Positions 43,493-47,321 of a DNA stretch of 50,006 nt are shown one piece after another (position 1 is the first letter of the stretch; every line of letters begins with the position of its first letter). The stretch is from Hellea sp. (GTDB lineage Bacteria > Pseudomonadota > Alphaproteobacteria > Caulobacterales > Maricaulaceae). The stretch covers positions 1-50,006 of the forward strand of contig JABABK010000022.1 in NCBI GenBank assembly GCA_014238285.1, written 5' to 3'. The notes under the pieces were generated by a model, which saw nothing but the letters and a program-made list of their open reading frames with translations, did no database searches and was not told where the DNA came from. The position numbers and the translations under genes are program-made.

Positions 43493-44545
43493 ATGAGCAC
43501 AGATAAACTTAAATCCAACGATCATGATAATTACTTCAAAATCGCAAAAGGAAACTTTAGAGAGTTTTACAATCAAAACCTTCACGACTTTCAAGCAGCA
43601 GAAAAAGCAGTCCGAAATCTGATCTGCTTACTACTAAAAGATCAATCATTTCCCGAGCCTAAAGTATCTTCACGAACCAAGGAACGCGAAGAATGCATTG
43701 AAAAATTTGTCCAAAAGTATCGAGAAGCAGCAGAAGTAGAACAACCAAAATACAAGATAGAATCTTATATAACTGATCTGATAGGGTTACGTATCGTTTG
43801 TTACTATGAGAGCGACATTGAAAACATATCTGATATTATTAGTACAGAATTCGAAGTTTTAGAAATAACCGATAAGTCTTTAGAACTAGAGAAGAAAGGT
43901 AGTGAATTCGGGTACAAAGGCAAACATTTAGATGTTAAAATCTCGAGCAACAGATGTGAATTTCCTGAATATAACAAACTAGGGGACAGGCGCTTCGAAA
44001 TACAAATAAGAACACTTGCTCAAGATGCTTGGAGTGAAGTTGACCATAAACTCAAATACAAACACGATCTACCCGCTCATTACCAAAGACGGATTGTTCG
44101 ATTATCCGCCTTATTTGAATTGGCGGATCAGGAATTTCAATTAATTAGGGATGAGGGCATTAAACTCGAAAACGAGGCGCAGAGCCAATCGCTTACAAGC
44201 AACGGAAGCTCAAAGCCATTAGATACTCTCGGGTTTCTCACAACAGTAAATGAACACTTTAAAGGCTTCCCTGCCCACGGTCAGGCCCTATCAAATCTAA
44301 TGAGTGAAATTAAATTGTCAAAAAACGATATTACTGCGTTGGAATTTAAAAGTATCTTGGATTCTACTATTATTAGGGTCAATAAATATAATTTAGCCCT
44401 GACTAACGACGGCTCTCCGATGTCACCAATGACATCATTGCGACACTGTCTTTACTTGAATGACACCATTTTATTTAAAAATTTAATTTACAATTGGCAA
44501 AAATTAAACTTCGATAATTGGTTAAAAACTTATTCCAACAAATAA
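43493..44545 (+). CDS. Orphan RelA/SpoT-domain (pppGpp synthetase-like) protein
   Basis: A 350-aa protein with a RelA/SpoT nucleotidyltransferase domain (residues about 50-225) and no HD hydrolase, TGS or ACT domain. Synthetase residues are conserved: SSRTKERE (about 59-66), Asp95 in TDLIGLR, Tyr141 in GYKGKHLDV, and Glu169 in FEIQIRT followed by QDAWSEVDHKLKYK. So it is probably an active pyrophosphokinase. Residues about 226-350 are helical and unrecognised. The gene and its upstream spacer are AT-rich (17 G/C in the 60 bases from 43501), suggesting acquisition. It may be a small alarmone synthetase or a toxSAS-type toxin. A TTGAAT-16-TATAAA promoter lies just before the ATG. It overlaps the thioesterase pseudogene by 16 bp at its end. 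Confidence 0.85.
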   Translation: MSTDKLKSNDHDNYFKIAKGNFREFYNQNLHDFQAAEKAVRNLICLLLKDQSFPEPKVSSRTKEREECIEKFVQKYREAAEVEQPKYKIESYITDLIGLRIVCYYESDIENISDIISTEFEVLEITDKSLELEKKGSEFGYKGKHLDVKISSNRCEFPEYNKLGDRRFEIQIRTLAQDAWSEVDHKLKYKHDLPAHYQRRIVRLSALFELADQEFQLIRDEGIKLENEAQSQSLTSNGSSKPLDTLGFLTTVNEHFKGFPAHGQALSNLMSEIKLSKNDITALEFKSILDSTIIRVNKYNLALTNDGSPMSPMTSLRHCLYLNDTILFKNLIYNWQKLNFDNWLKTYSNK

Positions 44546-44925
44546 GGCCGAAGCAATTCAATCATATCTTTGGGTGCGCGCTTGGGGCGACCAGATGGCG
44601 TTATGCTTGCGGCCTCGGAAACGGCAGTCACTAAAAGCTCGTCGCCACGATAGGCGGCTTGGGAAACCCAAAGTCTCGCCCCTTTAAAACTGTCGTAGGT
44701 CGTGACGATGGTGACATGATCATCTATGCGAGCGGGTTTTTTGTAATCCAGTTCGATCTTACTAATGGCAAATGCAATAGGATCATCTCCGTCCCAGAGC
44801 TCGGCATGGTTTAATCCAACGAGCCGAAAAAATGATGATCGTGCCCGCTCGAAAAACTTCAAATAATTGGCGTAATAAACAATGCCCGTAAAATCAGTGT
44901 TATGTCGAAGTCGACTTAACGGCCA
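44530..44925 (-). pseudogene. 4HBT/YbgC-type acyl-CoA thioesterase, 5' end damaged
   Basis: The frame clearly encodes a hot-dog thioesterase: TDFTGIVYYANYLKFFERAR, then LWDGDDPIAFAISKIELDYK and the rest of the family to the C-terminus. Homology starts before any start codon: the reading frame reaches back to a stop at 44926-44928, passing WPLSRLRHNTD, where the family has WPLRV(Y/H)xxDTD. The only start inside it is a TTG at 44862, which would remove the catalytic Asp. An ATG at 44926 is in a different frame. So the gene is likely 5'-truncated or frameshifted. The intact paralog at 45520 shows what is missing. Confidence 0.55.
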
Positions 44926-45051
44926 TTATGCCGAGTTTAAAATTATGTGGAATACGAGAAAATTTTCCAAAAATTACAGCCCCTTACGAATTATTAGTCG
45001 GCATAATATGTTAATAAGAGATCGAAACTAAGCAAAGTTAAGCGATAACTA

Positions 45052-45465
45052 TCAAGAAAAAGCGGACAGAATATCTGATTTTATTCGAATAGGTCTTTTG
45101 AGCTCTCTTGAAACTAATATCCATGTGGTTTTGGCCAGCACGGCTACTTTGTCAGAATCCCTCAACCTTATATCGACATATCGGTCAAAACGCGCGCCCT
45201 TAGCGCAACCAAGCCATGTTCTGACTTCAATCTCATCTTCCAAATATAGCTGTTGCTTATAGTCTATTTCATGCCTTGAGCAGAACCAAACAAACTCGTT
45301 CTTCAGCGCATCACTAGCAACGGCCGACCAATGGGAGATTGCGGCATCTTGTATCCAATGGACGTAGACCGCATTATTGACATGACCTAATTCATCTATT
45401 TCACCTGGACGCACGGTTCTCGTCGTAATTACTGCGTTATCAAAGCTGTCATTTGCCAATTTCAT
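45052..45465 (-). CDS. 4HBT-family acyl-CoA thioesterase
   Basis: A 137-aa hot-dog thioesterase. The signature is GEIDELGHVNNAVYVHWIQDAA, where the Asp/Glu and the HVNN pair match the FadM/YbgC-like branch. HEIDYKQQLYLEDEIEVRTWLG follows. It should hydrolyse an acyl-CoA or acyl-ACP thioester in the cytoplasm. It is divergent from the second thioesterase gene at 45520, with only 54 bp between starts. The stop is at the AT-rich spacer before the pseudogene. Confidence 0.85.
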   Translation of the reverse strand: MKLANDSFDNAVITTRTVRPGEIDELGHVNNAVYVHWIQDAAISHWSAVASDALKNEFVWFCSRHEIDYKQQLYLEDEIEVRTWLGCAKGARFDRYVDIRLRDSDKVAVLAKTTWILVSRELKRPIRIKSDILSAFS

Positions 45466-45519
45466 AGAGTAACGTAAAACTATCTGAATGTTACAAGCAA
45501 CCGATTAGTGGCGATATTT

Positions 45520-45960
45520 ATGGATCATAACAACACCTTAGGTTGGTTTGAGGGCCCGCAACACGTTTTTCCCCTTCATATATTCTTTGAGGATACTGAC
45601 TTCAGCGGCCTAGTCTATCACGCAAACTACCTGAGATATTTTGAACGGGGGAGATCAAGCTTCCTTAACCTCATCGGAATTCGACATTCCGATCTTTGGG
45701 ACAATCAAAAGCTGGCTTTCACAATTCGCAAATTTGAAATTGAATACAAGGCCCCAGCCAGGATTGATGATCAACTTATAATAAGAACTGTGTACGACCA
45801 AATTACGGGGGCAAGGCTTCTTATTTCTCAGAGTTGCTACAGAGACTGTGAACTTATAGCATCTGCTAAGTGCGAAGCCGCATGTATTTCTCAAAACGGC
45901 AAACCCGTAAGAGTTCCGCAAGAAATTCGAAAAGCCATTGATCAAAAAATCAAACCTTAA
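45520..45960 (+). CDS. YbgC-type acyl-CoA thioesterase
   Basis: A 146-aa hot-dog thioesterase with the full family N-terminus: FPLHIFFEDTDFSGLVYHANYL, catalytic Asp in EDTDFSG, followed by ERGRSSFLNLIGIRHSDLW and EIEYKAPARIDDQL. It is the intact paralog of the pseudogene at 44530-44925. The start could instead be the GTG at 45508, four codons earlier; neither has a clear Shine-Dalgarno. YbgC-type enzymes act on short-chain acyl-CoA or acyl-ACP. Confidence 0.85.
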   Translation: MDHNNTLGWFEGPQHVFPLHIFFEDTDFSGLVYHANYLRYFERGRSSFLNLIGIRHSDLWDNQKLAFTIRKFEIEYKAPARIDDQLIIRTVYDQITGARLLISQSCYRDCELIASAKCEAACISQNGKPVRVPQEIRKAIDQKIKP

Positions 45961-46046: not shown

Positions 46047-47321
46047 TCATGAGGGTTGATACATATTCCGGAGTGCAACCATGGCTTCTGCAACAATTTC
46101 GTCATCGTTCAAATTCTCAATTTCATCTGCGGCACTTGCCGCATTAAAACAGAGTAAAATGGGTTCGCCGATGAGTTTAGCCATATTGAACCATTCGATG
46201 AAATATCCACGTTTAGGACCGATATATCCAAAAAGATCAACGTCGTTGTCCCAAAAGACCTCATCAAATTTGAGGTAAACTTTATTAAGCAATCCCATAC
46301 CGAGTTTTTCAATAGAGTCTTGCCGTTTCGCATCGAGCGGCGGGTTAAATTGAATATCCCCGGATTTTAACACACCGAGCGGGACAGTAACCAACACAGC
46401 ATCGGCAACATATGATGCCCGATTTGTGGTTATATTAACAGCCTTACTTTCCACATCTATTTTCTTGACGATGGTCTCATATTTGATGTCATACCCTTCA
46501 ACCAACGTTTCGAAAATCTTTAGAAACCCGCCCGGAAAAATAACATCGTCACCATCAAATTCATCGCCTTCCATCTGTGCAAATTTAGAGAGATCACCAA
46601 TATCTGCGGCATACTCATGCTCGATCATGGAGATATCATCAAAGTCATCGGAAATATCCCGAAGCTTTACCCTTTCACCTGACGCATTGCGGGCAGAATA
46701 ACTATCGTAGTCAGTAACAATACGCGGCGCATCTATTTTATCGGCCAATTTTGAAAGAGGGTTGTCTTCTACGCCATGAATCCAGGACGCCCCCAAGTCT
46801 AACGGCAAGCCCCAACTTGTATCCGTCCAAACACGGCCACCCAATCGATTGCGAGCTTCCAAAACAGTCGCTTTAAGACCAGCCTGCGCGAGATCGTATG
46901 CTGCTGTAATGCCGGCGGCCCCGGCTCCTACGACAATTACCGAGCGTATTTTTTCGCCCAAAATTTCTTTTGCTGCATCTTTCCCAGAATATAATGCGCC
47001 ATGCACCGTTGCGGGAAAGTCACGGTTTATCGCTTCACCTGCGAAAAACAGCCGACCCAAAGAAGACTTGCCAAGACTGGTTCTGTCATCTGGTTTCGCC
47101 CCTTTTGCCAAATAAGAATAAGACCCTTTTGCAAATGGATCGGCACGCCACCTTGTGACAATTGATGCGAGAGGGTCGGGAACCTTATCAACAGTTTTAG
47201 TAAAATTTTGGTCCGTCATCTTCAATGTTTCAGCCTTGCAAGATGACATTAGCCCAGAAACTCCCAGTGCACTTGCCATCAACATTAATTCACGGCGAGC
47301 CATGGTGATCGAATTAGCCAT
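46047..47321 (-). CDS. Flavin-containing amine oxidase, apparently circularly permuted
   Basis: A 424-aa FAD-dependent amine oxidase with unusual domain order. After a Tat/lipoprotein-like leader (ARRELMLMASALGVSGLMSSC), residues 48-120 hold the segment that ends ordinary family members: VTRWRADPFAKGSYSY, LFFAGEAINRDFPATVHGALYSG. Only then comes the Rossmann part: VIVVGAGAAG (residues 128-137), VLEARNRLGGRVW and GLPLDLGASWIHG. The chain stops at ALRNMYQPS, exactly where the family normally continues into the TRW-x-DPF segment. ATG at 47321 has AAGGGAAG before it. Substrate is likely an amine. It is downstream of a GntR gene on the same strand. Confidence 0.85.
   Translation of the reverse strand: MANSITMARRELMLMASALGVSGLMSSCKAETLKMTDQNFTKTVDKVPDPLASIVTRWRADPFAKGSYSYLAKGAKPDDRTSLGKSSLGRLFFAGEAINRDFPATVHGALYSGKDAAKEILGEKIRSVIVVGAGAAGITAAYDLAQAGLKATVLEARNRLGGRVWTDTSWGLPLDLGASWIHGVEDNPLSKLADKIDAPRIVTDYDSYSARNASGERVKLRDISDDFDDISMIEHEYAADIGDLSKFAQMEGDEFDGDDVIFPGGFLKIFETLVEGYDIKYETIVKKIDVESKAVNITTNRASYVADAVLVTVPLGVLKSGDIQFNPPLDAKRQDSIEKLGMGLLNKVYLKFDEVFWDNDVDLFGYIGPKRGYFIEWFNMAKLIGEPILLCFNAASAADEIENLNDDEIVAEAMVALRNMYQPS

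Follow-up and report, generated by a model that had tools for sequence, protein, structure and literature searches.

A gene on the minus strand of the stretch of DNA analysed here (50 006 nucleotides of the Hellea sp. contig JABABK010000022.1, referred to below as the window) very probably encodes a naturally circularly permuted flavin amine oxidase resembling LSD and polyamine oxidases, which would retain the usual fold, bind FAD, be exported through the Tat pathway and oxidize amines, and which would have a single alphaproteobacterial origin accompanied by the loss of about 45 residues. The translated reading frame runs uninterrupted from 47321 to 46047 over 424 codons, a TTG codon 12 codons upstream being also possible as an alternative start for the 424-residue product, P0001. 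This protein is a flavin amine oxidase, matching the Pfam family PF01593 (Amino_oxidase) in three stretches with an E-value of 7.8e-72 and a score of 243.4 bits, compared with a family cut-off of 19.8. The parts of the gene are collected in Table 1.

Table 1. Permuted flavin amine oxidase gene of the window and its parts (positions are those of the window; profile positions refer to ordinary-order relatives)
Feature	Position	Strand	Basis
Permuted flavin amine oxidase gene, 424 residues (P0001)	46047..47321	-	Translation and Pfam Amino_oxidase
Leader and spacer, residues 1-44: twin-arginine motif (ARRELMLMASALGVSGLM), then a weakly conserved stretch	47190..47321	-	Sequence; Tat assignment putative
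Moved segment, residues 45-121, equivalent to profile 346-422 (the C-terminal end of ordinary-order relatives); TRW, GSYSY, FAGEA, TVHGA	46959..47189	-	LSD2 and profile alignments
New junction, residues 122-125: short linker between the original C-terminal helix and Rossmann strand 1	46947..46958	-	Profile alignment, spacings
Rossmann/FAD part, residues 126-218, profile 3-96; GAGAAG, EARNRLGGR	46668..46946	-	Pfam, LSD2 and profile alignments
Shortened substrate-domain region, residues 219-230, in place of profile 97-153 of ordinary relatives	46632..46667	-	Profile alignment
Remainder of the substrate and FAD domains, residues 231-421, profile 154-344	46059..46631	-	LSD2 and profile alignments
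Lys347 codon; aligns with the lysine of the LSD2 EKI motif	46281..46283	-	PDB phmmer, alignment

Human LSD2 was the best match of P0001 among PDB sequences (phmmer), and residues 126-196, 254-422 and 46-119 of the query aligned with residues 354-425, 538-713 and 716-789 of the LSD2 chain, respectively, each of the three stretches with an independent E-value below 1e-10. Against a profile of nine ordinary-order relatives, P0001 in its native order matched positions 346-422, then 3-96 and then 154-344. Both comparisons bear out the reversed order proposed in the first-pass annotation, in which the segment that usually ends the chain stands ahead of the Rossmann motif. The coordinates proposed at that stage are also right, residues 48-120 lying at 46962-47180 and the GAGAAG motif within 46911-46940, the moved block being slightly wider in the profile alignment (residues 45-121). 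At the break, between profile positions 344 and 346, nothing is repeated or lost and the two pieces are complementary, with neither overlap nor gap; together with the uninterrupted frame, this agrees with the earlier reading that both junctions are clean and that the chain stops where the moved segment would attach.

P0001 without its leader was also scored against this profile in every rotation. The best single-domain score, 235 bits in the native order, climbed to 337-341 bits for rotations starting at approximately residues 120 to 228; in a leave-one-out comparison, all nine ordinary relatives scored highest unrotated. The test proposed in the first-pass annotation, whether a circularly shifted sequence gives one continuous full-length alignment, thus succeeds only in part: rotated P0001 matched in two stretches, profile positions 97-153 being absent. 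A distinct deletion inside the substrate domain, corresponding to these positions, accounts both for the two stretches and for the plateau, rather than a sharp peak, of the rotation scan. Each part of the ordinary chain is present once, the order of the parts is swapped and the ordinary chain is covered except for profile 97-153. A circular permutation of P0001 is supported by these alignments.

Homologues sharing the order that had been ascribed to the window protein are present: 25 distinct permuted loci were found in 24 genomes, spanning five families of one class, the search profile (A1), composed of three permuted proteins, having been run over sampled genomes. At all 25 loci the C-terminal segment is followed by the Rossmann part and then by the substrate domain, and none has the arrangement of ordinary PF01593 chains, with the Rossmann motif first and the FAGEA segment last. 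The spacing from the TxW motif to FAGEA is 37 residues in every one of them, and that from FAGEA to GxGxxG is 39 residues in 22, being 40, 43 and 44 in the other three. Complete genes are found at 22 of the 25 loci, all ending at profile positions 341-346; the incomplete ones are L112 and the two permuted genes held by genome G920 (L083 and L085), each interrupted by a stop codon. One permuted member lies in a genome consisting of a single contig of 3.08 Mb (G127). Since the same order recurs at 25 of 25 loci in 24 genomes, chance is ruled out as its cause and, judged by these sequences, the permutation is a conserved and apparently inherited trait.

Permuted genes were found in at least 5 of the 137 genomes sampled from the window's family, 6 of 299 from its order, 3 of 385 from its class and 3 of 398 from its phylum, and in families f20, f27 and f5 in at least 4 of 17, 12 of 248 and 2 of 62 genomes, respectively, these counts being lower bounds because the profile cut-offs varied, from E 1e-25 (the window's family and class sets) to 1e-80 (family f20), and because several searches scored only the strongest candidates in each genome. 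The genome sets overlap, and the window's own genome is counted in the family, class, phylum and order sets. Non-permuted matches at E 1e-25 came from three genomes of the family set and 16 of the class set, and every locus fetched was of ordinary order, two of the ordinary-order loci fetched being partial (L061 and L066). Ordinary order was also found at L001-L008, obtained by a scan of genome contigs; L009 and L010 match only partly. The 18 pattern matches in viral contigs included no relative, and the 55 plasmid records with matches were all below 60% identity, the two that were fetched being of ordinary order. Among the best 25 NCBIfam models for each of three proteins, none scored above its cut-off. 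A search for 16S sequences gave one in G668 alone among four genomes, and none in the genome of the window. The 16S sequence of G668, a genome of the window's class, matched Pseudosulfitobacter and Sulfitobacter at 94.0-94.8% over the full query length (the best 12 of 570 matches), from which we infer that the class of the permuted loci is Alphaproteobacteria and that family f27 lies near the Rhodobacteraceae group.

After correction of their order, the permuted proteins form one clade, with support of 98/93 in a tree of 15 permuted and 17 ordinary sequences and of 99/98 in a larger tree of 25 permuted and 15 ordinary sequences. A few long ordinary-order branches are present in both trees and the ordinary sample is small, for which reason a single origin, although well supported, is not definitive. 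The ordinary sequences derive from a motif filter that caught 25 ordinary-order entries, some of them duplicates of one locus, from which nine were used for the profile, 17 for the first tree and 15 for the second; L011, L014 and L015 were left out as duplicates of L043, L045 and L044, respectively, and L003, L005 and L007, which the filter missed, were used only for structure prediction.

Duplication and fission-fusion are the two main models of circular permutation presented in a published account (PMC3320104). Ordinary amine oxidase genes, distant relatives of the permuted ones, occur in tandem pairs at L006, L059 and L062, so that the starting state for a duplication route does occur in nature. 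Since the leader precedes the moved segment and not the old beginning of the chain, such a route would imply that an inner leader was lost. No intermediate with a doubled segment was found among the loci examined. A second DPF...FAGEA copy, which would have spoken against the proposed permutation, is absent from the protein, and no second C-terminal segment was found within 1.2 kb of the 13 intact permuted genes searched (less on one side for two of them). This search covered 15 loci, with up to 1.2 kb on either side (175 bases upstream of L044 and 829 downstream of L078), and returned just one noise match and the downstream half of each interrupted gene of G920.

Accompanying the permutation is a substrate domain about 45 residues shorter than in ordinary relatives, a feature absent from the first-pass annotation. 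The stretch from WIHG to the PGGY-type motif spans 76-82 residues at all 15 permuted loci measured, compared with 123-133 residues in the ordinary relatives (measurable in eight of nine).

Motif residues are conserved in both pieces. In the 13 intact permuted sequences aligned, GxGxxG, Glu155, Arg163, Trp180, Lys347, Thr56, Trp58, Tyr68, Glu96 and Thr105 are invariant, as are Gly132, Gly134, Gly137, Glu155, Arg159 and Gly161-Arg163, which make up the FAD-related GxGxxG motif, the downstream glutamate and the R.GGR motif. Lys347, which we take from work on LSD1 and PAO to be the active-site lysine, is invariant in these 13 sequences and in all nine ordinary sequences aligned. The moved segment is under purifying selection in the pairs tested, with dN/dS values of 0.14 for the least diverged pair and of 0.42 and 0.16 for two others, a fourth pair being saturated.

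The twin-arginine leader noted ahead of the moved piece in the window protein is kept in 24 of the 25 permuted loci and, with a hydrophobic stretch after the arginine pair as judged by eye, is a putative Tat signal. The leaders of L047 and L083 carry LGGC or PGC and resemble, by eye, lipoprotein anchors, while the other leaders look like ordinary cleavable ones.

The fold was modelled in two AlphaFold2 runs whose inputs were restricted to the window protein and pieces of related loci (alignments A3 and A5), two further alignments in which Rossmann pieces were placed on the TVHGA helix being left out. The first run gave a pTM of 0.67 and the better model a pTM of 0.74 and a mean pLDDT of 70.4. 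In the latter, residues 41-100 have mean pLDDT values of 73-86 per ten-residue block, the two blocks covering residues 101-120 have values of 57 and 66, and residues 229-240 and 244-256 lie below 50. The top Foldseek matches of the model were LSD2, maize PAO and LSD1; as Foldseek aligns in chain order only, the query TM-scores of 0.48-0.52 and r.m.s.d. values of 10.7-12.6 Å to LSD2 and maize PAO (larger for LSD1) could be what a permuted chain aligned in order would give. The usual packing of the moved segment on the FAD domain is only partly supported by the model.

According to the preferred explanation, the approximately 77 residues that ordinarily close the chain, comprising TRW...GSYSY...FAGEA...TVHGA and the last helix, would come first and be connected by a short linker to Rossmann strand 1, with the chain stopping where the moved segment formerly began. 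Both pieces would fold into the usual two-domain enzyme, in which FAD would be bound by residues of both. With the twin-arginine leader ahead of the moved segment, the folded holoenzyme would be exported through the Tat pathway and, outside the cytoplasm, would oxidize an amine substrate at the flavin beside Lys347 to an imine, the reduced flavin being turned over by oxygen with formation of H2O2. The rearrangement would have occurred once, in the ancestor of an alphaproteobacterial subfamily, in which about 45 residues of the substrate domain would also have been lost.

The same chain could be arrived at in other ways. Fusion and truncation are one route to it, and the gene might thus be a remnant in which a stray C-terminal fragment of another amine oxidase was joined ahead of a C-terminally truncated, inactive copy with no working fold, a reading with which the two stop-containing permuted genes, both in G920, and the middling quality of the AlphaFold2 model would agree. 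It is nevertheless extremely unlikely, given that 22 of the 25 loci hold complete genes with almost constant spacings, that the motif residues of both pieces are invariant in all 13 sequences aligned, that dN/dS remains below 0.5 wherever it could be computed among the four pairs tried, and that the pieces are complementary at the break. An error of assembly or binning that misordered two gene pieces might be suspected in a genome of 168 contigs such as that of the window; the probability of such an artefact is practically negligible and it is rejected, since a further 23 genomes, including the single-contig one, share the order at 24 loci.

A further alternative retains a working enzyme, the N-terminal segment of one subunit completing the FAD site of the other in a domain-swapped dimer. 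The AlphaFold2 model, which covers a single chain only, leaves room for this arrangement, but the natural ends are joined by just about four extra residues and the single-chain model reaches a pTM of 0.74, which together favour packing within one chain and make the swap very unlikely.

In the window, the permuted gene lies downstream of a gene for a GntR/FCD-type regulator that shares its strand. Thioesterase-like genes lie past the end of the permuted gene, and an amidohydrolase gene lies past the regulator on the opposite strand. Three thioesterase-like (4HBT) genes lie close together on both strands at 44530-45960 and adjoin a RelA/SpoT-domain gene at 43493-44545. A scan for promoters and terminators returned about as many sites as in shuffled sequences. 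In the 15 neighbourhoods compared (of 25), there is no widely recurring neighbour of the kind that could name a substrate. Peroxidase-family genes lie near the permuted gene in two of these 15, in G127 (L089 473-2653) and G1011 (L098 5282-6910); the two are homologous (PF00141, 64% identity) and are weakly consistent with an H2O2-forming oxidase. A PilJ-type gene (type IV pili chemotaxis transducer, N-terminal) adjoins the permuted gene in G030 (L087 7473-8459) and G125 (L088 7456-8484), with 61% identity between the two. Within genus g5, the ordinary gene of G124 (L048/L090) and the permuted gene of G127 (L047/L089) occupy the same interval, from a TonB-dependent receptor gene to a conserved block, and the permuted gene of G030 (L045/L087) lies on the opposite side of the receptor gene. 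Because ordinary and permuted genes lie far apart in the tree, replacement or a shared function is a likelier explanation of the common interval than a fresh permutation in place.

The closest likenesses are to ordinary prokaryotic LSD/PAO-like oxidases, such as those of a Synechocystis PCC 6803 plasmid (WP_223211231.1, L077), Haloarcula (WP_324760952.1, L076), G124 (L048) and Anaerolineae (L008), which have the same motifs and lysine, in several cases a twin-arginine leader, and approximately 34-51% identity over the matched pieces. They differ from the permuted proteins in that the Rossmann motif comes first, the FAGEA segment last and the substrate-domain stretch is longer. The amine oxidase domains of human LSD2 and LSD1 (KDM1B and KDM1A), the best sequence matches in the PDB, with LSD2 also the top Foldseek match, are of ordinary order. 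Both LSD1 and LSD2 have a SWIRM domain, and LSD1 a tower; for P0001, in contrast, the 16 Pfam families listed up to E 1 are all amine oxidase or dinucleotide-binding models with no SWIRM among them, and there is no histone context. Maize polyamine oxidase (1b37) and the mammalian polyamine and spermine oxidases match P0001 in sequence, and the maize enzyme also in fold, but have the ordinary order.

Flavin amine oxidases (MAO, LSD1, PAO and L-amino acid oxidases) are much studied and, to our knowledge, the order of their chain is generally held to be fixed; we know of no natural permutation in the family. The finding, which is real and conserved, adds such a family to an old kind of event. The same kind of rearrangement is described for saposin/swaposin, DNA methyltransferases and transhydrogenases in the available part of PMC3320104 and for FMN-bind1 domains in that of PMC11334425, all of which belong to other families, none of them a flavin amine oxidase. 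Among the matches listed in searches of the open-access literature, largely excluding subscription journals, no description of a permuted flavin amine oxidase was found. In the portions available, no term starting with 'permut' occurs in 'The tree of life of polyamine oxidases' (PMC7576179), and neither 'amine oxidase' nor 'flavin' occurs in a paper on the detection of permutations (PMC11757225).

It is possible, although rather doubtful, that the permutation and the loss from the substrate domain represent one functional innovation. The leader would have been relocated to the former loop between the substrate domain and the C-terminal segment, instead of preceding Rossmann strand 1, with a lipid anchor apparently present in some members, and the active site would have been opened by the smaller substrate domain, giving a periplasmic oxidase with a substrate or electron acceptor not seen in its ordinary counterparts; this form would have become fixed a single time before spreading through the Alphaproteobacteria.

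Searches that follow chain order split proteins of this kind into three matches and could lead to their misannotation. Being naturally permuted, with an apparently single origin, a sharply defined break and relatives of ordinary order, the family is a clean system for asking which connections the fold needs. It also lends itself to the questions of how such a rearrangement gets established in a family of bacterial genes and whether the moved chain ends matter for the Tat export of a cofactor-loaded enzyme.
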